64,000 bases of DNA from Pascua guehoae (taxonomy: Eukaryota > Basidiomycota > Tremellomycetes > Trichosporonales > Trichosporonaceae), in NCBI GenBank assembly GCA_001600415.1, contig BCJX01000001.1, positions 2,222,271-2,286,270 of the forward strand, in the 5' to 3' direction. Below the pieces are notes generated by a model, which was given only the letters and a program-made list of their open reading frames with translations, was not told where the DNA came from and did no database searches. Positions within the stretch are counted from its first letter, which is position 1; each line of letters begins with the position of its first letter. Both the position numbers and the translations under genes were made by a program. Below, one piece after another: positions 1,960-59,440 of the stretch.

Positions 1960-4900
1960 CTACATGCGCTGCTCTTCCAGCTGGCGTATCCGCTTGGACA
2001 CGTCCGATCCCGTACCCAACCCTGTGCCGCTGTTGAGCCTGCGCGAGGGGGCGAGGGGAGCAGAATCGAGGCGGCGGAGTTGGTCCGACATGTCGCGCCC
2101 GAGCGCCTCGTGCGATTGCTGAAGGCCGCGCAGTAGATCTGCGCGTGACGACGGCGCACGCGCACGCATCTTGGCCTCGGCGAGCTCGGCTTCAAGACGG
2201 GCATTCTTGGCGAGCATGTCGTCTTGTACTCCCTGGAGACGCTCAATCTCGTTGAGGGCGCGCTGGAGCTTGACCTCGGACGACGACGAGACCACACGCT
2301 TGGGGCTGAGCGCTGCCGTCGACATGCGGCGACGCTGGTCCTGGAGGTCCTGCTCCAGAGCGGCAGCCTTGGATTCGGCCGCGAGGCGCGCCTTGCGCTC
2401 CTCTTCGAGCTGCTGCATTGCCGTCTTGTCCTCGACGCCTAGCGACGCCCGCGCCGCACGGGCCTCGCGGCCACGCGTCTTCCTGAGCAGCTCAAATGAG
2501 CGCTGCAAGTCGTCCAGGTCCGCCTGCAGGCGGTTGCGCTGCGTCTCGAGCGACCGAAGCACAGTATTCAGACGCTTGTTCTCAGACACTTGCTCGGCAA
2601 GCTGCCGGTCCGTCATCTTCTTGGCCGACTCAAGGACGTGGACATGCTCGACAATCGTCTTATTCTCGCGGCTTCGCAGAAGGGCAACCTCGTCGTCGCG
2701 CGCCTTGATGTCTCCAGACGCTTGTGCAATGTCGCGTTCGAGCTGCTCAACGTCGTTGCGGTGCTGCGCCAGTTCGGCGCGCTGCTCGTGGACTTTGCGT
2801 TCGAGGGCCTGACGCTTGTCAATCTCACTCGACAGCTGGCCATTGACGTCTTCGAGGCGCTTGCGGAGCACGTCGCGCTCGTGCTCAAGAGGGAGCAGGG
2901 CATCTTCGAGATCGGCAAACTTCTCTTCCTTGTCCTGGACCAGGCGCTGCAGTTCCTACAGGGTCAGCATCCACCTCTATTCACTAGACCTACGTCGCAT
3001 TCCGCCTTTGAGGCCTGGAGGTCGCGCTCAGTGGTCTTGAGCTTGCCACGGACAGACTCGAGCTCATCTTGAACCTGCTTGTGCGATTTGGCAGCTTCGG
3101 CGGCTGCAGCATGCAACTTGTCGACCTCTGACTCCTTGCTCTTGAGTGCATCGGCTTTGGCGCGGAGATCGCGCTCGGCCTGGTTGTGGCGCTGTCGCAA
3201 GCTGTCAATGTCGATGCGGAGCTTGCTGGCGAGTTGCACGGCATTATCGCGCTGCTTCTCCTGGGCCGCCTGCAGCTGGGTGACCTGCTTGCGCAGGCCG
3301 GCCATCTCGGCATCGCGGCTCTTCTCGGCCTCCTTGCGCTTGACCTCTTCCGAGACCTTGGCATCCATGACCTTGCGCAGCTCGTCGAGCGATTTTTCAA
3401 GCTTGGTACGCTCAGCCGCGTCCTTTACCCGCTCTCCGTCACGCGAAGCCAGGTCAGCCTTGAGGCTGTCAATCTGGACCTTGAGAGCAGCCTTATCGGC
3501 TTCGCTCGCCTGGTGGGCCTTTGCCGCTGCCGCTCGCTTGGTCTCGAGGTCGACAATGGCCTGTTGCTTGGCGGCCATGGTTGCCTCGTGAGCCTTGATC
3601 ATTTCCTGTAAGTCTGCGAGTTCGGCTTCGCGGCGCTTCAAGTCGCGGCTGAGGGTCGTGACTTGGCTGTTGCCAGTGTCGCTTCGCAAGTTAGCGGGAG
3701 CCATACATGTACTTGCGACAGCCATACACGTTTGTACTCACGACTTCTTCTTCTCCTCGTTGAGGAGTCGCTGAACCTCCTCCAGTTCGCCGTCCCTCTT
3801 CTCCTTGGTCCGCCGTGCCTGCTCGTCGCGCTTGGTAATGTCACGGCGAAGGTCCTCGAGCTGGCGGCCGAGATCAATCTTTTCATTCTCGAGTTTGGAG
3901 TGCGCTGCCGAACGGTCCGTAGACTGGCGCAGAAGATCGGCTTCACGTTGACGCCATGCAGCCCCATCCTTTTCGAGCATGCGGACTTGCTCAGCCAGCT
4001 GGTCGTGTTTGTGCTGAAGCTTGACGAGTTCGTTACGGCGTTCATCGGCTGAAACAGTCGCAGTGTCGAGCGACGTCGTGAGCTTGTCGAGTTCGGTTTC
4101 AAGCTCTGTGACACGATCTTGAAGTTGAGCTTCATGAGCCTTGGCGCGCTTGAGAATCTCGTCCTTCTCCAGGCCAAGATCGCGCTCCGCAAAGAGATCC
4201 TTCTCGACTTTTTCCTTCTCCGCCAACAGGTTTGTGCGAAGCTCTTCGAGGCGCTTCTTCTCCGCCTCGTCACGCTCTGCACGCTCCTTGGCAATGGTAA
4301 GCTCCGCCTGTTTGCGAGCAAGTTCCTCGTCCACACGCGTAGCGGCCAAGAGGGGGCGGACCTTGACGTACAGCGACCACCACGGCCAGTCGCGCAGCTC
4401 GATATATGCACGGGCATTGCGCTGGATTGTGCGGACAGCCTGAGCACGGTTGATTAACTTGTTGATCCGCCGGCGCGCAATGTGCATACGCGCAGCAGAC
4501 TGGAAGCGGCGGAAGATGTCGGCGAGAAGGTTGTCGCGGCGCTCCTCGAGCTCGGCGAGGATACCGGCTTTGAAAAAGATCTTGGTCGCACCAACGGCGT
4601 AGAACCCGGCATCGAGCTCGAGTGCTTCGGCAATAATGACGGCTGCCTTGCGACCGTCCATGTAGCCTTGGGGAATAACCCCGGGTGTGAGGACTTCGTA
4701 CCGCTGGCGGAATTCACCAAAGGCTAAACGGTTCGGATAACCGAGGCGCGCAATACGAATGCCTTCAATGACACCGTTGCAGCGGAGCTGGTCCAGCACG
4801 AGGTTGACGTCGACCTTGCCAGGTTTCTTATCCCCATTGGGCACAATGCAGCGGACAAAGTGGGGCTGAGTGCTGGCGAGCTGCTGCATGAGCTGGCCCA

Positions 4901-7444
4901 ACTGCTCCTTGTGACGCTGGCCGACGGTACGGAACGCGCCACGCTTGATCCGTTTGCCGCCCGCAGTAGGTGTCGTGTCCTCGGCGTACTCGGAGAACAT
5001 GGCCGCAATAGACGGCACGTCGGACTGGGAGAGAAGACGAGCAACGGCGTCGTTGATCGGGTCCTTGTTCTTGGTGAGCCAACCCTCGGTGCGGTACTCG
5101 ACGTCGCCAGCATAGTGCTTGATGACGAAACCCTTGCCGAAGCGGGTGGGACGGAACTTGGCAGAGCCAGGGTGGACCTTGCGGTTCGAACCCTTGGGAG
5201 GCTCCCACTGCTCTTGCACCTTTTCGGTAAACGTAACGTCGGTCGCCTTGGGCATGATACACTCCTCGTCGAGGAGAGACAGGATGCCAATCGGCTGGGT
5301 GCTCTCAATGAGCTCGATCGTTGGCTGCAGGTCGAGACCAAAGTTGACAAAGTCCCACGTGATGCCCTCGCGAGTGTACTCTTCCTGTTCGAGCGTGAAC
5401 ATGTGGAAGTTGAAGAACTGCTGCAGTTTTTCATTGGTAAAGTTGATGAGCATCTGCTCGTAGCTGTTCTCGACTGCGTTGTTAGCTCGGCCGCCTTGCC
5501 GCAGCTCACCAAAGATTTCAAAGCCGGCAATATCGAGCACACCAATCGAGAGGCTCTTGGTGCTAGGGCGATCAAGGGCCTTGTTGATCCGGTCGACCAT
5601 TCCACTAAACGTCTTTTCGTACATAAACTTGGAGAGGGCCGCCAGCTCGTCCTCGGCTTGTTTCTTGGAACGAGCATGCGTGACCCACTCCCGGCCGGCG
5701 CGGACCCTCGGAGACAGAACCGACTTCATAAACTCCTTGACGGACACGCCGAGCAGGTGGCAGACCTTGTCGGCCACCGACTGCGATTCGGGAGGGAGGA
5801 ACGCCTGGTCTGCCGAGCTGCCCACCAGAGCAATGTTGCCAATGTGCAGGATGGTCGCAACAACGCGGAAGAGCTCAAACTGCTCGTCTTTCGTGAATCC
5901 GACCACGCCCAAGGCATCCTGAATGTCAGCGCGTTTTACGAACTGCAGGTTATACCCACCTTGAGAGTCTTCCATTCCGCAAGATCATCAACACCGTCAA
6001 TCTGCTGCCTCGACTTGTTCAGAACATTATAATGCTCAGGTCCAGACTCGAGAAGCAGGGATGCTGCAGGTTAGATTGTTGTCCCTCAAACGCAACAGCT
6101 CACCACTGAGTCCAGCCTCCTTGGCGCCTCGTAAGAGCTGGTAGAAAACATGGAAGCTTCGCTCGCCCTCGGAACGGCCCGTTACCCTGCTCTTCTCGAG
6201 GAGGTACCAGTCAATGTTGGCTCCAGCGATGGCACCAGAGGGCGAGAAGAAGATTCGAATAAACTTGCCGAAACGGGACGAGTTGTTGTTTCGCATCGTC
6301 TGTGCGTTACCAAACGCCTCGAGAATCGGGTTTGCCTGAAGAATCTGGCGTTCCAATAGCCCCTGTTCGGTTTCGTCCCGACTGCTTGTTTGGAGCTCAA
6401 TCTCATCGGCATCCTTGCCCTTGAAGCTCGCGGAACGGGGAAGACCTGTGATCGGCGCGTTCGACGACGAGTCGGACGCCGTGGCAATGGCAGCAAGGTA
6501 CTGAATGACCTTCTTGGTGTTCTCAGTCTTGCCTGCACCAGATTCACCTCTGGAACGCGTGAGCACAGGCCTCCAGACCAAACAAACAAACAACTTACGT
6601 GATGAGAATGCTCTGACTCTCGCGCTCTTCACCAATTTGCTGCCAGGCTCGTTCGGCAACAGCAAAGATATGTGGTGCGTTCTCCTCTCGTCGCTTGGTG
6701 CGGTATTGTGAAATGACCTTGGATGTGTAGATGGGGAGCGAACGGTAGGGGTTGAGCGAAATGAGGAAGAGGCTGGGGGGAGGTTAGCAGGATTCAAGAG
6801 ATGCGGGAGTAAACGCACCCAGAGTATGTCTGCAGAGGTCAGCGTCATTCACAATGTGCAGGCCGCCATGGCACTCACGTAGATGCTGCCCGCGCCATAC
6901 CGTTGGCGCAGATCGTTGACTACGCTGGCTTCGTTGAGGTGGGTGAGTTCGGCAATGTCCTCGACGCCGTCAAACTGCGGTGGGTTCATTGGGGAGAGGC
7001 TGTGGAGGGCCACTGTGCGGATCTCTCCCGTGGTGGTGACGACGACCTCGGCGGTAGCGTCTGCCCCCGCGGAGCCTCCAGGCTCGGCCTTGATCCATCC
7101 CGGAAGGAAGCCTTCGGTCGCATCAGGGATCCATACTCGTCTGTTTGGGTCGATATCATCCATGTCGACAGGGATGCGGGAACGGGTTATACGAAGGACA
7201 GGGGTGGATAGGAAGCCCATGTGTGGTTGTCGAGACGAAGAGAAGTGTTGTGACAAGACAGGCAAACGAAGAGACGGAACAGATGACAACGATGTGCGAT
7301 CAGCGATGTTTGCCCCCTGCGACGGTGCACGGTGGTCAATAACAACAAACACCCTACTCACTTCTTCTCTGTAAACTCTGCTTGGGCCGCAGCGTCTACA
7401 GCCGTGTCCTTTTGGACCCTCCCAAGTAATTTGGCTGGGTCCAT
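1960..7444 (-). CDS. MYO1: class II (conventional) myosin heavy chain
   Basis: Nine exons on the minus strand: 7362-7444, 6879-7140, 6819-6829, 6599-6772, 6104-6549, 5960-6063, 3742-5918, 2994-3681 and 1960-2955; 4941 nt, 1646 residues. The start at 7444 supplies the segment ending QAEFTEKK that joins to [10 protein letters not shown], the usual myosin II N-terminal SH3-like region. The motor holds the P-loop GESGAGKT (about 178-185) and the actin-binding [10 protein letters not shown] segment (about 717). The neck near 835-870 has an IQ-like [16 protein letters not shown] stretch. From about 870 to near the C-terminus the chain is a heptad-rich coiled coil with no DIL or other globular domain, which separates it from class V. 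Expected role: contractile-ring motor in cytokinesis. The tail is somewhat shorter than in typical conventional myosins. Exon 3 is only 11 nt. It is divergent from DHH1 across a 0.94-kb gap. Confidence 0.9.
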
Positions 7445-16051: not shown

Positions 16052-17131
16052 CTACTCATCCAACCCCCAAAACGCCCCTTTCAACCCCACACTCCCAAAA
16101 TACCTCTTGGCCGCCCCCGGCTCCCTCCTCCTATACCCCCCCTCCAACCGCCCCGCGTACCACCCCCTTGCAAGGTGCCACAGCGTATCGAGGTCCATGA
16201 CGTATCCCCTCGTGTTGCCGGTACGCGCGAGCCACGCGTCGACGCACGCGCGCGTGCAGAACAGGCGCTGGTGGGCGCACGTGTGCACGACGTCGTCCCA
16301 CATGCGGGTTGTGGGGAGGAGGAAGTGGGCCACCGGACCGGCGGGTTGGGATCCTTGTACTTGGCCGCGTTGTTTGGGTTGCTCGTGTGTGGGTTGCTCG
16401 TGTTCGTGTTCGTGTTCGGGTTGCTCGTGTTCGTGTTGCTCGTGTTCGGGTCGCTCATGTTCGTGTTCGGGTCGCTCGTGCTGCTCAGTGTACCCCTTAG
16501 GCCCCGGCGGCGCATCCACACCGACATCCAGCGCCATCGCCCGCTCGCACCCGGGACACCGTGTCGCGACGAGCACGGGCGCCTCGTCGGGAAGTAGGTG
16601 GGGGAGGGCAAACGCGTCCCACGCGCAGCCGCCCCACCAGAGCGTGCGGCGGCCCATGACGCTGAAGCCGAGCGGGAGGGAGGAGAAGGGGTGCGCCATG
16701 AGGATTGTGTGTGGGTGGGTGTCGGCTTGCAGGGGGCCGGTGGGGTTGGGGTTGGGGTTGGGGTTGGGGTCGGTGTTGGGGCCGGGGTTGGGGTCGGCGT
16801 TGGGGTCCGCGTTGGGGTTAGGGCTGGTTGACATATCCGCACGCCCGACGGCGCGCGAAAACGCCTCCAACGCCTGGGGAGAGAGGACGATATCCCGCGA
16901 CTGATGCAGCGCAACCAACGCAGCGCGCACGGCGGGCACGGACTGCCCCGTCCTCTGTGCCAGTTCCGGGACGGTCGGGGCGCGCCCGCGCGTCGCGAAC
17001 GAGGCGTACAGCGCGACGCGGGTGGGTTCTGTCATGTGTGGGGGCTGGACGCCGGGGTGTAGACTTGGGAATAGGTGGTTTTGTGAAGAGTCTGGCGGTG
17101 AGTCGGAAGTCAGACTCTGAGTCGGCATCAC
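16052..17131 (-). CDS. organomercurial lyase (MerB)-like protein with His/Glu-rich insert
   Basis: Single exon, 359 residues; the alternative start at 17035 gives 327. In order: a short helix-turn-helix-like region (about 38-85, with a PELAQRTG segment), a linker of Pro-Asn and Asp-Pro-Asn repeats (103-130), then a core with HPFSSLPLGF, WWGGCAWDAFALP and PVLVATRCPGC. An insert with ten His alternating with Glu (217-250) follows, then a C-terminal part with VVHTCAHQRLFC. This matches alkylmercury lyase (MerB): C169 and D172 form the CxxD pair equivalent to C96/D99 of the bacterial enzyme, and C285 lies where C159 is expected. MerB cleaves the carbon-mercury bond by protonolysis. The activity is inferred from these residues only. 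No mercuric reductase or transporter is next to it. Both inserts are absent from bacterial MerB as I know it. I kept the upstream start because its second ATG has A at -3. Confidence 0.65.
   Translation of the reverse strand: MMPTQSLTSDSPPDSSQNHLFPSLHPGVQPPHMTEPTRVALYASFATRGRAPTVPELAQRTGQSVPAVRAALVALHQSRDIVLSPQALEAFSRAVGRADMSTSPNPNADPNADPNPGPNTDPNPNPNPNPTGPLQADTHPHTILMAHPFSSLPLGFSVMGRRTLWWGGCAWDAFALPHLLPDEAPVLVATRCPGCERAMALDVGVDAPPGPKGYTEQHERPEHEHERPEHEQHEHEQPEHEHEHEQPTHEQPKQRGQVQGSQPAGPVAHFLLPTTRMWDDVVHTCAHQRLFCTRACVDAWLARTGNTRGYVMDLDTLWHLARGWYAGRLEGGYRRREPGAAKRYFGSVGLKGAFWGLDE
16741..16824. repeat. G-rich (tggggt)n tract inside the MerB-like gene
   Basis: The plus strand has more than ten runs of four G separated by 1-5 bases. 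On the coding strand this is the C-rich sequence for the Pro-Asn repeats of the linker. It could form G-quadruplexes on the non-coding strand. Confidence 0.8.
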
Positions 17132-32008: not shown

Positions 32009-35000
32009 ATGCCCTTCCCTCCGGCGTACCCCGACGTCGACCCCATACCTTCCCCCGGTCCCATCCACCCGTCAATCGGTGACATCCAACTCGACAGTGA
32101 CGGCGAATACGACATCTTAAGCGAAGGTGATAGCGAGTTCGAGATTGTTCCGAATCCGGTGGCAAACGGTATCGTAGAGATCAATCAGGACCACCTCAAG
32201 AATGGTCTGGCCGCCCTCACCATCACGTCCGAGGACGATACGGAATCTGCGTATGGCGGGATCGAGGAGAATGCCGCCGTGGGTACAAGCAGCCGCGTGG
32301 ATGATAAGGACGACACGCAAGACAAACAGGACAAGGATGTGAACAAGTTCAAGTGTACCCTGAATAAGGGAACAGACAAAGAAGAACACCACGAAGAGAA
32401 CGTTCGCCTCGAAGACCGATACCAGGACAGTACCAAGCGAGAGCCCCTCCCATACGAAGACAACGGGTGTAAGAGCAACGCAAAGGGCAAGTACAAGGAC
32501 GACCCGCTCGGAGACAACGATTCTGTGGGCCCCGGAAGGGTAAACGCCGTCGAGAACGGCCGCAACGAAAGCGGCCAAGATGACACCTTCGACCTGCCCC
32601 ACCATCAGCGAGCACGACGCAGTCGCAACCATCCACCCAGCGCTCCCTTTCTCCGCCCTGCTACCCCCGAGTTTGCCTTCTCCCCTGTGCCTCCTCCAGC
32701 CCCAATCAACCTCCCGAAATCGGCCTCCCGGTCGCTCGAACGTCCAAACATGCCTTCCGGCTCCAACTTGGAAACAAACCACGCCTATCCCCCACCTCTG
32801 GCGTCCAGGTCAGGCACTTCCAAGTCGGTATCTTCCATTAGGTCGTATGTCACGGCCCGCACTTCCTCATCTTCGGTCATTGTCACCGACGACATCACCG
32901 CAGAGCAAGAACCATGGACCTCCACGTCCCCCGGAGATTTGCACGAAGAACTCGCAGTCTCCGAAGCGGAGCGCGAAGCGGCTATCCGTGCCGCAGCATT
33001 CGCGGGTGCAGCCTTAGAACGTGAACGTGCGGCGCACCGTGCCGCTTTGCACACCCACGAGACGGAGCGTCGCATGAGTGAAGAGAGGTCATCTAACCTA
33101 TCCGAGCTGCAACAGCGCTACAGGTTCCTCGAGCACGAGCACGAAGAGACGCTTGGTCGCGTCCAGCGCCTGCATAAGGCGCTCAGGGCGACGGAGGACG
33201 CGCGTGACAAGGCACTCCTCCAAAACAGTGCACTCAAGGCTCAAAACAATACACTCCGGAAAGAGCATGATGACCTCCAAAAGAGCCATGTCAAGCTCGA
33301 GAAGAGCCACGACGTCCTCCACTTGTGCCACGAAAACGTCGATCAACGCCGTGAAGTGCTGCAGCAAAGCCACCAGACGCTCTATCAAGCCCACAACGAG
33401 CTTCAACGGAACCACGATGAGCTGCTGAGATCACACGCGTTACTGCAAGCCACCCACCGCAACCTTCGGGTCCGCCATGAAACGCTCAAAGAAACGCATA
33501 CCGACCTCCAAAACCGCCACGGTGCGGTACAAAAGCATCACGAGAAGAGCCAAATGCATGTCGACCCCCCGAGCGCAACGTTCAAAGCTTTCCCAGGTCA
33601 TTTGCAAAAGCGCGTTGAACGGTTCGAGATGGACTTTTGGGATCAGGACCCTGTCGGCCGCGCAATGTCCCACGAGGCCAGCAGGGTCAAGGCCTGGAGC
33701 AATGGTTTCCAGCGCGCGTTTCTGTCCTCTGCGACTCTTCCTAGGGCGGACGAGATGATCATATTTGACGAGGTGCTCACCACCATCGAAAACTACGGGG
33801 TTATGAGGGTCGAATACCTCCTGTACACCAAGATTCACAAGGGTGGGTCCACAGAGCTCAAGTGACTGCTGACCATTAGTAATGAGGAAGATTGCCGCTC
33901 TGGACAATATCCCCGGCAACGACAAGTTCCACATCACGAACCGAGCGGAAAAACTTGCAAAACAGGTACGTTGGTCTATGCATAGTAGCATCCGCTAACA
34001 CGCAGTGGGAACTGATGATTGAGAAGGCAAAGCCCAACAACAATGTGGCTGCAACCGACGACCGGGCGGGCACAGGTGTGGCGCCCCCGGGGCCATGGGT
34101 TCCCGCGAACGGCATCGACAGGAACTCGAATGCCCATGAACAGGTTGACTATGGTCATGCTAAGCTGCGAGGCTTCGAGAGTGAACGTGCAGCCCAGAAG
34201 GCCCCCGCAGGTCACGCACAGCTGTTGGAGCACCCCAGTGTTGATTCTGGCCGCCCCCACATCGAACCCAACACAAGTTCTGCAGTCGGAGCCCCTAGTT
34301 GGGTCCCGGATGACTCGACGATGGCGACAGGAACTACGAGGCACCTCAAAATCAACCAAGAACGCCTCGGGCTCCCTCCGACGAGGGACAGCACCGACGG
34401 TCTTCCGAGGGAGCGTGAGCTCACCGTTGCGCGCGATCACGACCGTGCTCGGCTCGAAAAGCGCGCCAGGAGGAAAGCCACCGTCCACGCCCACGACAAG
34501 GTGCCTCCGGGTGTGAAGCGCCCGTCATTCACTCGCCTCCGTGGTAAACCCCATCGATCGTTGGAGGTCGCCAAGCCCGGCCGCCGGTACTCTCTCGAAC
34601 GCCTGACATGGAAGTTCGACGACCGGGGCCACCCAAATGAGGTCAACGAGGACGCCCGTGGAGGTGACGATCCCGCTCTTACGGAGTTGATCTCTGCGAA
34701 GATGGTCTCCCAGCAGGAATTGGACCAGCCTGAGCAAAGCAGCTCCCAGTTCGAGGACTGTCCCAGCGTCGATACAAGTGTCAAAGGAGACGGCCCCGAA
34801 GCAAACGATCTCGACTCATTGCAGCTCTACCCGGCGTACTGTCGAAGCCTCGAAGACCATTCCAAGACTCCCAGCGATCCGACTCCAGGGCGAAAGGGCA
34901 AGGAACGAGAGCGAATGGAGCAGGGGACAGGGAAGGATGACAACGGTGCTAAAGTACTGAACCATGCCCGGGAGCGGAAGGACGAGCAGCAACATGTCGG

Positions 35001-36195
35001 CGACAGCAGCTCTGTCCAGGTCCCCATGCCCAGGAATGCACCGGACGTTAACAACAATGGTCCCCGCTTCTCCGAGTGGAATGCGCCAAGGGCCGGCCCG
35101 TCGCGCCAGGCTCCTCTCCGGCGCACTCCCACCATCCCGCCCCTGTCCATCCCCCGCGGAGGGGTCTTCTCACAAAATCGCAAATCGAGTTCGGGATACG
35201 GTTCTCTCTTCTCGCGTTGCGCCACGTCTCCGAATGCCACGGATGCGCCCTCCATCTCCCTCATGGAGGTCGTCCCTACCAACCCTGCCCAGCTGCCGGC
35301 TTCCCAACCCGCCATTGATCCCATTGACCCATCCCCTGCGACCGCGGTCCCGGCAGCCCCCGCCCAACCTGGCATTCCCCGAACCACCGCACTTCCCAGC
35401 CTCCCCGCCGCAGCCACTGTCCAGCGCCCGCGGGAGGAATCGCAAGGCTATCGCCAATCCCAGATCACCCCTGCCCTTTACCCTCGTCCAGCGGCACGCG
35501 ACACCACGCATGAAGCAAGGTACGCCACCATCAATTGGGCCCGCGCTCAGCGCCGGCGCACGACGGATGGTCAAGTCACTGGGGTGGACCAGCTGGGTGA
35601 TCTCCCGGGCTCGTCTGGATTTGCCCCGCACGCCGCTCACGAAAGGACGTCAATCGCAGCGGCCCCTTCGGTCGGTGTTACACCGTCTACGACTGTGCCT
35701 ACGGCCGTCGCCACTCAACGGGCCGCCCCACGTCGAGCAGCTGTCCCACATCAAGTGGTTGTCCCACGGCCTGTCGCAGTGCCAACTCAAGTTCCCGGTA
35801 ACGCCCTTGGTGCCAACGGGTCGATGCAGAGCGAGGTCAACGACAGTGTAATCGGCACGGACCGCCGCCCCCGCATGGTTGCTATCAAGTTCGCGGCTCA
35901 TGAAGCGGCTACATGGAACGGGAGGCCGGTGACGAAGAGGGCTCCGGTCGCGCATGCTGCTCTGCCTGCTTCTCTGCCTGCTGCGGCCCCGTCATCTGGT
36001 CTCCTTCAAGTTCCTGGCCAAGCTGCAGCGGTTGCCACGGATGCGGACCCCAACCGCGCCGAGCGCAGTCGCCGGGGTACGACCGCCTCTGACCCCCCGC
36101 GGTTCGCCGACTCGCTCCACCGCCGCCTGCTCGAGGTCAAGCGCGCAGAGGGTCGTGGCGACGGCCGTGGTCGTGGTGGCGTCAACGCGTCGTGA
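32009..36195 (+). CDS. large coiled-coil protein with a TFIIS-N-like region and a histidine-heptad core
   Basis: Three exons: 32009-33842, 33880-33965 and 34006-36195; 4110 nt, 1369 residues. The start has a near-perfect Kozak context (gccaccATG). Residues 1 to about 330 are acidic, Ser/Pro-rich and probably disordered. A coiled coil runs from about 335 to 520. Within it, residues 420-511 form successive heptads of type HxxLxxx, with His at 420, 427, 434, 441, 455, 462, 469, 476, 483, 490, 497, 504 and 511 and Arg at 448. Residues about 580-650, crossing both introns, resemble a TFIIS N-terminal (TND/LW) helical domain: TTIENYGV, YLLYTKIHKVMRKIAAL, RAEKLAKQWELMI. The remaining 700 residues are basic, Pro/Ala-rich and low complexity. 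I do not recognise an ortholog. A transcription or chromatin role is only suggested by the TND-like part. Confidence 0.75.
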
Positions 36196-41953: not shown

Positions 41954-44301
41954 ATGAACGCGGCGCTCCTGCAGCAGATCCAAGGTAGGTTCAACAAATA
42001 CTCACACACCGCTAACGGTTAGCCGGAAAGGGCCTCAAGAAGACTGAGACGAATGACCGCTCCGCACCCGCAGTAGCCGGAGGTCCAGCTGGCGGAGGCG
42101 GTGGCGGAGGCGGAGGCGGCGGAGGTGGTGGTGGTGGTGGTGCGCGCGGACCTTCGGCATCGACACCCATGTCTGGTGCCGACGGGCCAGCTCAACAGCT
42201 TGCAGGTCTCTTTGCAGGTGGCATGCCGCAACTCCGAAAGACGGGTGGTGGAGGAGGTCGTGAGTGATTCTTGCCGTGCTCAATTGCTTTACCCCTCTGA
42301 CTTGCAGGCGGCCCCACGCCCGGCCTAGCCAAGCCCCCGCCGATTCCTGGCGCCGGTGCGCGCGCATCGAAACCCACAGGTGCGCCTCCGCGCCCGCCTG
42401 CTCCGCCTGCTCCCTCCGCACCGGCGCGTGCCCCGCCTGCGCCCCCGCGCCCGCCTCCCTCGGTCCCGAGCCGTGGCCCACCGCGCCCACCGCCGGCACC
42501 ACCGGCTCCTTCCCGCCACGTCCCCGCCCCGCCGCCTGCGCCGTCTCGTCACGTCCCCACACCCCCTGGCCGAGCGTGAGTTGTCTGACGTTTGATTCTG
42601 TGGTCCCAGTTAACAGCCAGCCCGCCCGCGCCACCCCCTGCGCCGCCGGCCCACTCGTCTCCGGCCCGTGCTCCCCCTGCACCTCCTCGCCCGCCTCCTG
42701 CTCCGCCCCGCGCACCACCTGCTCCTCCTGCACCGCCCTCTCCTCCCCCGGCGCCTGCACACAGGGCGCCGTCGCTCCCGAACCGCGCCCCACCTGCTCT
42801 TCCTGGCCGTACAGCACCACCGCCCCCGCGCCGTCCGTCGCACGGTGATTCTGGCCGTCCTGTACCCCCGCCTCCTCCCCGTTCGTCTCCAGGAGGCGGG
42901 CGCGCAGTGCCGATGCCCCCGCCCCTGCCGAACAGGGCTCCCACGCTTCCCAGTCGCCCAGGCGGTGCAGCTCCGGGTGTGAGTTTCAGATAACCCCTAA
43001 AGAATGACGATATACTCACCTCGCAGCGTGCCGTGCCCCCACCGCCGCCGCGTCACGGAAGCGGAGGCTCGACGTTGACGCCGCCTCGTGCTCCCCCGCC
43101 GCCGCCGCGCCCAACTGGGCCCCCGACACTCCCGTCGCGTCACTCTCCGGCCCCGCCGTCGCGCCACATCCCCGCCAAGCCTCCAACCCCTCCATCGCCC
43201 GAGCCGGCCGCCCCGCCCCTCCCGCGCCGTCCTGGCGGAGCGGCGAACTCGATGTACGGTAGTTCAGCTCCCATGCCGCCGCCGCCGTCCCGCAATGTTG
43301 CGCCTCCGGCACCACCCCCTCCACCTCCCCAGCGCACTGNTCCGGCTCGGCACATTCCGTCGCCTGAGCGTCAAGACGACTCCCCGCCGCCGCCCCCGTC
43401 CCGCAATGCTGCGCCTCCNGCACCACCCCCTCCNCCTCCCCAGCGCACTGCTCCGGCTCGGCACATTCCGTCGCCTGAGCGTCAAGACGACTCGCCGCCT
43501 CCGCCGCCGCAGGGCAGGAGTCCCGCGGCGATTGCCATGATGAACGCTGGCCGAGTGGTGAGATGACGCCCTAGCCACCGTGCTAACACTGTAGCGCGCA
43601 ACCAGCAACCCGACTGTGCAGGTTCACCAACCCGAGCCCGACGATGCACCGCCGCCCCCGCCCATGGGGATGAGCCCCGCTGCGCGCGCCATGGCTGCTG
43701 CTGGTCGAGTGGTGAGTCTTTTGGTTGGAACTGACAGCACGAGCTCACACTTGTAGCGTGCGCCCAGTAACCCACTGCCGTCCCCTCCGTCGGCGCCCAG
43801 CCCGCCTCCGCAGCGTGCGCCTCCGCCCCCGCAGCGTACGCCGCCTCCTCCTCAGCGCTCGACACCAGAGCCTCCCCAGCGCTTGACACCAGAGCCTCCC
43901 CAGCGCTCTGTGCCTGAGGCTCCTCCCCCGCCCCCCGGCCCCAGCCCTGCCGTGAGTTGGAAAGTGTCCCAAGACAAGAATACCCCCTCTGACACGCAGC
44001 GCATCCAACGTCCGACATCGTTTGTGCCCCCACCCCCGCAGCACCTCGCGCCGCCCCAAAAGGCGCGCCCGGCATCCGTGTCGCTCTCGACGCCCGCCAA
44101 CGGGCACATTGCACACGTGCCCGAGCCGCCCGCCGTGGTCGGTAACTGGACGTTTGCGATGAAGGGCATGTTCCCCCCGCCCCGGCCGTGGGTTGGCGGA
44201 CAAAAGTGAGTCGACGAGTGTACAAGCGTGGGCGTTGCTGACGGGCCAGGACGTATGCGAGCGGTAACGTAAGGGGCGGTGGTGTGGGCTACAATGTCTG
44301 A
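41954..44301 (+). CDS. VRP1: verprolin / WASP-interacting protein (WIP) homolog
   Basis: Nine exons: 41954-41984, 42023-42259, 42308-42575, 42621-42978, 43027-43557, 43595-43711, 43757-43951, 44000-44205 and 44250-44301; 1995 nt, 664 residues. The N-terminus is an actin-binding WH2 motif (NAALLQQIQAGKGLKK), split by intron 1. A 17-residue Gly run follows. Most of the rest is proline-rich with many PPPPP and APPAPP stretches for SH3 and profilin binding. The C-terminus, GMFPPPRPWVGGQKTYASG, resembles the WASP-binding end of verprolin/WIP. Role: links WASP (Las17) to actin nucleation at endocytic patches. The 48-nt intron at 43952-43999 is divisible by three and has no stop, so retention would add 16 residues. 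Three ambiguous bases (43340, 43419, 43434) lie in a tandem repeat. Confidence 0.88.
43286..43507. repeat. 111-bp in-frame tandem duplication in VRP1
   Basis: Two nearly identical 111-bp units (37 codons each), beginning at the SRN-(V/A)-AP codons and running through PARHIPSPERQDDSPPPPP. All three N bases of the gene fall in these units, as if reads from the copies could not be separated. Confidence 0.85.
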
Positions 44302-52484: not shown

Positions 52485-52911
52485 TGATGTATCATTTGTG
52501 CCGCTGGGCTGGAGCAAGAGCGGCACTGCGCGCAGCTGCTCACGAACATGACCCCCGCGAGGGGGACGAGGGGGGGCGATGGGAAGAAGGTCTTGCGTCC
52601 CACCCCCCAGGACATCTACCTTGCTTTGTGCACCCTTGTCTTTGCCAATCTACACGCTTGGCATGTGCTTGGACTCATCCTGCACTTGGCAGCCTGCGAG
52701 GCGCCCCACGCCCTCACATTCCTGTCGATGTGGGCGTCAGCCACAACAAAGATGCCAAGGTGCCACCAACAAACCCATATCCGAGACCAACCGACCTCCA
52801 CCTTGGAATCACGTGACTTGGCGTTTCGAGTTGCGAGTTGCGACCGACTAACACTTGGGCTGCAGTCAATACCACCACAACTCGACCTCCCCACCAACGT
52901 TCCGACTCCCC
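52485..52911. other. intergenic, tandem genes
   Basis: Between the F-box-like gene and the mitochondrial Phe-tRNA synthetase gene. No gene or repeat seen; it presumably holds the 3' UTR and a compact promoter. Confidence 0.5.
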
Positions 52912-54466
52912 ATGATCCGCACACAGTTTTCGCGCGCGGCTGCCAGCGTCGCTGGCGCCGGGTGTGCGGCGCGCCCGCGCGTGGCGGGGACGCTGTTCCT
53001 GCGCGTCAGTGCCCGGCGGTTCCAGAGTACGAGTGAGTGCCGAGTTTTGGTAGATGTTGGCGGAGATGAGTAGGTGGTGACGAGTTGGTGGTGGGCGGTG
53101 GGCATGGGGAGTGGCCTAGTGGCAGCATGTTGCAGGGGCCTGTCAACCTTTTGTGCTTTGTGTATTTCTGGGGGGGCACGACTAACACTGCGCAGACACG
53201 GAACCGACGGTGATTGACGGGACATCATACGCGCGCGACGGATGGACGAACACGCCGCCCTCGATCCTGTCCAAGGTGGGGCGGCAGCTGCACATGCAGC
53301 CGGGGCACCCGCTCGCGACGCTGCGTTCCGTGATCGAGGACCACTTTGAGACGTTTACAAAGATCCGTCCGGCGTCTCCCGTGGTGACGGTAGTGCAAAA
53401 CTTTGACGAGCTGGGTTTCCCGGCCGACCACCCGGGGCGGTCCAAGACGGACTCGTACTATGTCAACGGGACGCACATGCTGCGTACGCACACGTCTGCG
53501 CACGAGGTGGAGACGTTCCGGACGGGCGCCGACGCATTCCTGATTGCGGCCGACGTGTACCGGCGCGACGAGATTGACTCGTCGCATTACCCCGTCTTCC
53601 ACCAGATGGAGGGGATGCGGACGTGGACCGAGGCCGGGTCGGCGTCGCAGCTCGCGTCGATCAAGGACGACAATGCGCGCATGGCGGCCGAGCTCGCGGC
53701 GTGCCCGCTCGTCATCGAGGACGAGACGCAGATTACGGCGTCCAACCCGTACCAGCCCAGCCACGATCCCGTGGTGGCGGCCGAGATTACCCAGCACCTC
53801 AAGCACTCGCTCAACGGCATGATTTTCAAGCTCTTTGGCGGCGCCGCCGCCCAGGCCGGCGAACCCCTCCGTGTCCGCTGGATCGAGGCGTATTTCCCCT
53901 GGACATCCCCGAGCTTTGAAGTGGAAATCTGGTGGAACGGCCAGTGGCTCGAGATTCTCGGCTGCGGCGTCGTCGTCCAGTCCACCCTCGAGCGCGCGGG
54001 CATGGGACACAAGTCGGGCTGGGCATTCGGCCTCGGCCTCGAGCGCATCGCAATGGTCCTCTTTGGCATTCCCGACATTCGCCTCTTTTGGTCCACCGAC
54101 CCCCGCTTCCTCGGCCAGTTTGCCGCGGGCACACCCGGAACCACCTTTCAGCCATACTCGAAATACCCCCCGTGCTACAAGGACATGTCCTTCTGGCTCC
54201 CCACCCACGCCGAAACCCAGCAAGAGGGCACACTCGCATGGCACGAGAATGACTATTGCGAAATCGTGCGCGACGTCGCGGGCGACCTCGTCGAGACTGT
54301 AGAGCTCATTGACGACTTTACACACCCAAAGACAAACCGCCGCTCGCTCTGCTACCGCCTCAATTACCGCAGCATGGACCGCTCCCTCACAAACGAAGAG
54401 GTAAACGAGCTTCAGAAGCGAGTGCAGGAGCGTGTCGTTAATGAGATGGGTATCGAGATGCGCTAG
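52912..54466 (+). CDS. MSF1: mitochondrial phenylalanyl-tRNA synthetase
   Basis: Two exons: 52912-53032 and 53196-54466; 1392 nt, 463 residues. The first 40 residues are Arg/Ala/Ser-rich without acidic residues, a good mitochondrial presequence, and the intron lies just after it. The mature part is a class II synthetase. It has VQNFDELGFPADHPGR, the THMLRTHTSAHE motif 2 lead-in, FRTGADAFLIAADVYRRDEIDSSHYPVFHQMEG, and motif 3 as GWAFGLGLERIAMVLFGIPDIRLFW. It ends in an anticodon-binding FDX-ACB domain (KYPPCYKDMSFWLP to the C-terminus). Single-chain PheRS with this domain order is the mitochondrial form (Msf1/FARS2), which charges mitochondrial tRNA-Phe. Confidence 0.95.
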
Positions 54467-58945: not shown

Positions 58946-59440
58946 NNNNNNNNNNNNNNNNNNNNNNNNNNNNNNNNNNNNNNNNNNNNNNNNNNNNNNN
59001 NNNNNNNNNNNNNNNNNNNNNNNNNNNNNNNNNNNNNNNNNNNNNNNNNNNNNNNNNNNNNNNNNNNNNNNNNNNNNNNNNNNNNNNNNNNNNNNNNNNN
59101 NNNNNNNNNNNNNNNNNNNNNNNNNNNNNNNNNNNNNNNNNNNNNNNNNNNNNNNNNNNNNNNNNNNNNNNNNNNNNNNNNNNNNNNNNNNNNNNNNNNN
59201 NNNNNNNNNNNNNNNNNNNNNNNNNNNNNNNNNNNNNNNNNNNNNNNNNNNNNNNNNNNNNNNNNNNNNNNNNNNNNNNNNNNNNNNNNNNNNNNNNNNN
59301 NNNNNNNNNNNNNNNNNNNNNNNNNNNNNNNNNNNNNNNNNNNNNNNNNNNNNNNNNNNNNNNNNNNNNNNNNNNNNNNNNNNNNNNNNNNNNNNNNNNN
59401 NNNNNNNNNNNNNNNNNNNNNNNNNNNNNNNNNNNNNNNN
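58946..59440. other. assembly gap (495 N)
   Basis: All bases are N. The flanks are G runs on both sides (58940-58945 and 59441-59451), suggesting that a G-rich homopolymer or repeat caused the gap. Confidence 0.98.

Follow-up and report, generated by a model that had tools for sequence, protein, structure and literature searches.

Can a coiled coil keep histidine at one of its two core positions over 14 successive heptads, and what might such a coil do for the protein that carries it? The question is raised by an open reading frame in a stretch of DNA from Pascua guehoae, 64,000 nt long, which was analysed as a whole and is referred to here as the window (Table 1). The window lies on C1, one of the 28 contigs of a genome assembly of 33.6 Mb, which is called the own genome below.

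Table 1. Positions of the features discussed (window positions, unless another contig or accession is named)
Feature	Position	Strand	Basis
Source DNA (the window), 64,000 nt, Pascua guehoae, assembly GCA_001600415.1	BCJX01000001.1, 2,222,271-2,286,270	forward	
Predicted exon 1	32009..33842	+	translation, splice model, intron position common to the C2 paralog
Predicted continuous helix, residues 357-515	33077..33553	+	AlphaFold2 single-sequence model
Register-setting upstream heptads, residues 364-419	33098..33265	+	register listing, per-position hydropathy
HxxLxxx array, residues 420-511	33266..33541	+	His at a 13/14, Leu/Val at d 13/14
C-terminal domain, residues 535-650 of the spliced protein	33611..34035	+	span of three exons with introns; own-genome paralog
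Predicted intron 1	33843..33879	+	37 bp, GT-AG; C2 paralog split at the same place
Predicted exon 2	33880..33965	+	splice model, paralog match
Predicted intron 2	33966..34005	+	40 bp, GT-AG; GTACGT donor at the same place in the C2 paralog
Predicted exon 3, tail to stop	34006..36195	+	open frame
PWWP-domain gene with a paralog of the C-terminal domain	C2, about 3645174-3646540	-	same intron position
Coil with five HxxL/V heptads	C2, 3772893-3773496 (run near 3,773,049)	+	own-genome coil search
Long coiled-coil protein with six His-at-a heptads	C17, about 52758-53060	-	own-genome coil search

The histidine array and its heptad register

The array is real and unusual. When the translation was read codon by codon from the ATG at 32009, histidine was found at codons 420, 427, 434, 441, 455, 462, 469, 476, 483, 490, 497, 504 and 511, and the only other residue at these 14 positions was Arg448, in agreement with the sequence-only reading from which the analysis started. 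The coordinates given there were also exact, since His420 begins at base 33266 and His511 ends at base 33541. The 14 heptads follow each other without insertion or deletion. The same reading had placed Leu or Val three residues after each histidine; this holds for 13 of the heptads and not for the last one, where Ser514 comes after His511. The residues at the +4 position are, in order, Q/E/H/D/Q/Y/Q/L/Q/R/K/Q/Q/Q, that is Gln in 7 of the 14 heptads and Ala in none, and the net charge of the coil segment is 0 over 98 residues.

The heptads preceding the array define its register. Their a positions are occupied by L364, Y371, H378, V385, L392, R399, N406 and N413, and their d positions by L367, L374, T381, L388, T395, A402, L409 and L416. 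The hydrophobic residues L364, L367, Y371, L374, V385, L388 and L392 thus fall on a and d, in phase with the array. Because these ordinary heptads enter the array in the same phase, His is assigned to a and Leu to d, and the earlier proposal that the two take the core positions is supported by the unbroken a/d register upstream. Inside the array only the d position is strongly hydrophobic. The alternative register, with His at e and Leu at a, is less likely, as it would place Ser, Cys, Arg, Ala, Asn, Thr or His at d and would need a break from the upstream register. Compared with a two-stranded coil of the leucine-zipper type, the hydrophobic d layer is present (13 of 14 Leu or Val) and the mostly hydrophobic a layer is absent, a being His in 13 heptads and Arg in one.

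The predicted structure is in line with a helix, as had been supposed. AlphaFold2 was given residues 356-527 (window 33074-33589) as a single chain and a single sequence without alignment, and it returned one helix without a turn over model residues 2-160, with a mean pLDDT of 93.0 and a pTM of 0.50. AlphaFold2 tends to return a lone helix for a heptad sequence.

Relatives of the coil and the origin of its heptads

In the protein database no relative of the predicted protein was found among 3166 candidates at E 0.001, none among 2863 candidates when the spliced protein was the query, and none among 58 candidates when the coil alone was searched at E 10. The matches to known families that did appear were set aside. 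The Pfam family OVT1 (helical domain of major antigen) matched residues 370-462 with E 1.6e-5, below its curated cut-off (25.7 vs 30.9 bits), and this match is read as coil-to-coil similarity; a match to Pax2_C (E 0.01) was below the curated cut-off as well. The PDB matches GDAP1 and BAP29/31 (E 0.055 or worse) and, for the coil, GDAP1 and TSG101 (E 0.031 or worse) are also read as coil-to-coil similarity, and the four alignments listed for the coil, all to GDAP1, keep a single histidine of the array, His441.

When the coil was searched against the own genome, long coils were matched on C17 (E 9.6e-4 and 0.033) and on C2 (E 0.41). The C17 protein has the heptads HEALQKE, HDTLSGE, HKTLRAT, HDDLTTL, HDKLKDE and HGTASGS, with six His and five Leu, and this run is preceded by hydrophobic residues alternating between a and d in the same phase. 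A further His-rich coil lies downstream. The run of five heptads on C2 comes after a break in the register and is then followed by Tyr at a and Leu at d; Ala and Gly are common at b and c of this coil. Since the matches to the array-bearing coil are weak, the coils on C17 and C2 show a shared style rather than kinship. At another match, on C3 (E 0.126), no HxxL/V/I run longer than 1 was found in frames of at least 100 codons.

The regularity of the array is far from what chance gives. Residues 330-520 were shuffled 20,000 times with their composition kept, and the best single-phase His count over 14 heptads was taken from each shuffle; none of them reached 13, the best value being 8. In 964 stop-to-stop frames of at least 100 codons, taken from 20 stretches (200 kb, all on contig C1), the maximum was 7 His in 14 heptads and an HxxL/V/I run of 2, against 13 and 8 in the array; as these frames are six-frame readings, many of which are not genes, they are a control for chance and not for coiled-coil proteins.

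A young tandem repeat is ruled out as the source of the array. Tandem Repeats Finder reported no array at 33266..33541, and the mean pairwise identity of the 14 heptads is as low as 0.295. At the DNA level the first two heptads are 71% identical, identity falls to 29-52% in the other 11 of the 12 adjacent pairs within the first 13 units, and the most similar pair of any two of these units reaches 76%. The first two codon bases are nearly constant (1.0 and 0.86 at a, 0.62 and 0.86 at d), which is partly expected because the columns were picked for His and Leu, and therefore only the third bases inform on age. The pairwise identity of these is 0.51 in the a codons and 0.35 in the d codons. The histidine codons of the array are 9 CAC and 4 CAT, and in the frames of at least 500 codons of the 200-kb sample 214 CAC and 83 CAT were counted. 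Since the heptads have diverged and the third bases vary while His and Leu stay, it is the residues rather than the DNA that look maintained. This divergence, which like the array and the register is read directly from the sequence, agrees with a residue that was selected or converged upon, and speaks against copying in recent times.

It could still be supposed that a 21-base unit was multiplied long ago and drifted, and that the histidine layer is a meaningless by-product of this growth. Besides the similarity of the first two heptads and of the best pair, it speaks for such an origin that 21-base repeats reading His-x-x-Leu/Phe are common in viral contigs. When these were scanned for six HxxL/F heptads (Val was outside the pattern), at least 120 loci were found, and among the matches listed 86 of 120 loci had an open array, 98 arrays in all. 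None of these 98 arrays, among the matches listed, was as diverged as the one studied here, the lowest mean identity being 0.48 vs 0.295. This result, the low identity of the 11 other adjacent pairs and the empty output of Tandem Repeats Finder argue against the by-product, and unselected drift should have cost the array more than one histidine; we regard this origin as very unlikely. The cut-offs applied to the viral arrays were a mean heptad identity of at most 0.45, Leu/Val/Ile at +3 in at least 70% of the heptads, and no Pro or Gly. An array on the - strand of viral contig L170 was rejected by them, since it has Phe at +3 in most heptads. This viral array consists of eight His heptads, mostly HxNFQxD (HANFQVD...), in a frame of 300 residues.

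The gene model and the C-terminal domain

The open reading frame with the coil (32009-33865, + strand, 619 codons including the stop) had been taken as the whole protein, which has to be revised: the frame is probably the first exon of a longer gene, which would encode about 1369 residues. In the splice model three predicted exons are joined to a protein of 1369 residues, and the first intron has a counterpart in a paralog on C2, where the domain query is split at this point, positions 1-77 lying in one exon and 77/78-107 in the next. The predicted exon 1 comprises an N-terminal part without a strong domain match, the coil, and the start of the C-terminal domain, in this order. No Pfam match was obtained in the region of exon 3 (window 33892-36192).

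Between the C-terminal domain and that of the C2 paralog the identity is 54% in one exon, 71% in the exon after it and 61% overall. Upstream of the shared domain the C2 gene has a PWWP domain (E 3.2e-15 with an approximate splice, E 0.0042 from one frame alone) and a Lys/Ala/Pro-rich stretch; it has no HxxL/V/I run longer than 2 in frames of at least 100 codons. For the gene with the coil, the Pfam search detected no PWWP match in either exon 1 or exon 3. A further match of the domain in the own genome was seen on C5 (E 0.33). Since it is common to a PWWP-domain protein, the C-terminal domain may be a nuclear protein-binding module.

Its fold is less clear. The domain could conceivably be helical and TFIIS-N/IBD-like; a likeness to the TFIIS N-terminal domain (TND) is suggested by its motif, by a match to Med26 that is no better than chance matches, and by the PWWP domain next to the paralog. 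Direct searches did not confirm it. Pfam gave no match to the spliced domain, with E values up to 1 admitted, and a search of the own genome with PF08711 found three other places and not this domain. Against the PDB it matched Med26 with E 0.38-0.60, at the level of an unrelated chain, FAP95/MC6 (0.52 and 0.55), and the Med26 match was lost with a two-sequence profile. The hhalign comparison with the three TND stretches of the own genome gave 0.5%, and a structure model of the incomplete domain had a pLDDT of 54.

Other features of the window were recorded as well. An ORF at 16052-17128 on the - strand has the Pfam domain MerB (alkylmercury lyase) with E 2.2e-18, above the curated cut-off, and is thus an organomercurial-lyase-like gene in a fungal contig. 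On the same strand a Myosin head is encoded at 3738-5972 (E 1.4e-140), and behind it there is a coiled-coil match below its curated cut-off. A 111-base tandem repeat with 93% matches and 2.1 copies is located at 43275-43509, with three single N positions inside, and at 58946-59440 the assembly has 495 consecutive N.

Possible roles of the coil and known histidine-based systems

Our best reading, which we hold tentatively, is that the coil serves as a module for weak, conditional or partner-selective association, and that the protein carrying it may be nuclear. Residues 357-515 would form one long helix, pairing through the Leu layer at d together with the a layer, and the latter would turn along the helix from mixed hydrophobic to polar, with Asn, Asn and then His. 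We infer that a coil whose a layer consists of 13 His and one Arg would bind itself or a similar His-bearing coil only weakly and in register. Because such pairing would be weak and in register, the coil could act as a conditional or partner-selective clamp joining copies of the C-terminal domain. If the cell interior became acid, the His layer might be protonated, or a metal might be bound to it, and the clamp would then shift. At neutral pH a histidine at a should contribute little stability, and for this reason the segment may not pair at all.

Sensing of pH or of a metal by the coil is possible as a hypothesis. In its most explicit form, which we consider unlikely, the 13 stacked His layers would hold the domain copies together at neutral pH and release them on acidification, or would lock with metal; the domain copies would be chromatin- or transcription-linked, the acid trigger would be, for example, starvation, and the coil itself would be the sensor. 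A simpler view, which is a serious contender even if it falls short of being probable, needs no sensing: histidine at a would be tolerated in the way of Asn, keeping the register or pairing similar coils, and it would be the style in which some of this genome's coils are built. The shorter His-at-a runs of two other coils in the own genome and the presence of Asn406 and Asn413 at a just before the array agree with this. Those runs, however, extend over only six and five heptads, the style is not a general one, as HxxL/V/I runs do not exceed 2 in any of the 964 background frames, and Asn, Gln, Lys or Ser would serve equally, yet 13 of the 14 residues are His.

Designed coils with rows of histidine chelate metal, and two or three helices of the present coil could likewise chelate Zn, Cu or Ni through their rows of His. 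A histidine every seven residues is also found in a fragment of the histidine zipper protein of PDB 5LOS, and Hartmann and Lupas suggest metal scavenging for the histidine zippers (PMC8616854). Against this stand the +4 position, which is Gln in 7 of 14 heptads and never Ala, the residue that fills it in 4 of 5 heptads of the 5LOS fragment, the single-chain model without a hairpin turn, and the absence of 5LOS from the PDB matches of the coil, and a metal-binding coil seems improbable to us. Finally, there may be no coiled coil in the cell, only a lone helix or a Leu stripe lying on another surface with the histidines exposed. One strongly hydrophobic position per array heptad, a net charge of 0 over the segment and the lone helix of the AlphaFold2 model would suit such an arrangement; it is opposed by the upstream heptads, in which two hydrophobic positions are used and which continue into the array in phase, and we give it hardly any weight.

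The statement that no natural example had been described was too strong. Coiled coils called histidine zippers have been published as a natural class, in which histidines interdigitate between antiparallel hairpin helices; structures are known from one fungus (PDB 5LOS, protein PIIN_05872 of Serendipita indica) and three bacteria, with T1083, T1084 and T1087 as CASP14 targets, and the identity among the members is only 15-23% (PMC8616854). The length and the Leu layer of the array do differ from the published histidine zippers. The likeness consists in histidine at regular heptad spacing along a helix, which in the array is kept in 13 of 14 heptads, the helix being predicted. Their helices form hairpins with antiparallel interfaces, whereas the window gene would, according to the model, have one long helix without a turn. 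A 35-residue fragment of 5LOS has five heptads, all of them with His at the same phase; two have Leu or Val at +3, in contrast to 13 of 14 in the array, and four have Ala at +4, a residue that is not stated to be class-defining and in whose place the array most often has Gln. The array also lies in a far larger predicted protein, of about 1369 residues, than the histidine zippers. 5LOS is absent from the 9 PDB matches of the coil up to E 10, which is a weak test of kinship given that the members are 15-23% identical. On the features tested the array is set apart from the histidine zippers, because the residues at +3 and +4, the turn-free model and the size of the protein differ. PIIN_05872 and Dld1 of Serendipita indica are presumably one protein. 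A review lists Dld1 under metal ion homeostasis (PMC9610748).

With parallel leucine-zipper-type coils of the Asn-at-a type the array has in common the Leu/Val layer at d (13 of 14), a polar a and, in the two preceding heptads, Asn at a. Such coils usually have one or two polar a layers, whereas the array has 14 of them in a row. As regards the domain architecture, LEDGF/HRP-2-type proteins, which combine PWWP and IBD, resemble the C2 paralog with its PWWP upstream of the shared domain (PMC13175633, PMC7835958); they differ from the present case in that the coil gene shows no PWWP match in its exons 1 and 3 and that no TND/IBD model matches the shared domain significantly.

A precedent for histidine-based sensing in a fungal nuclear complex is given by SNF5 of yeast. 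Histidines in a sequence of this protein are proposed to sense acidification inside the cell, and without them transcription is not efficiently reprogrammed on carbon starvation, when the nucleocytoplasmic pH changes (PMC8890752). The SNF5 sensor is a Gln-rich low-complexity sequence and not a coil, and no sequence relation to the array is claimed. Helical filaments that were designed to respond to pH, each subunit burying six or nine His as the responsive element (PMC11286511), may be likened to the array by their idea, theirs being designed and the array a natural sequence. Pairing of the coil via its His layer, if it occurs, would give the designed His-based pH switches a counterpart in nature, and a test case of unusual regularity for histidine in the core of a coiled coil. 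If the coil responds neither to pH nor to metal, it would still show that a nearly all-His a layer can be kept over many heptads of a long coil against the usual rule, and the class of histidine-built coils would be widened from hairpins to a long single helix.
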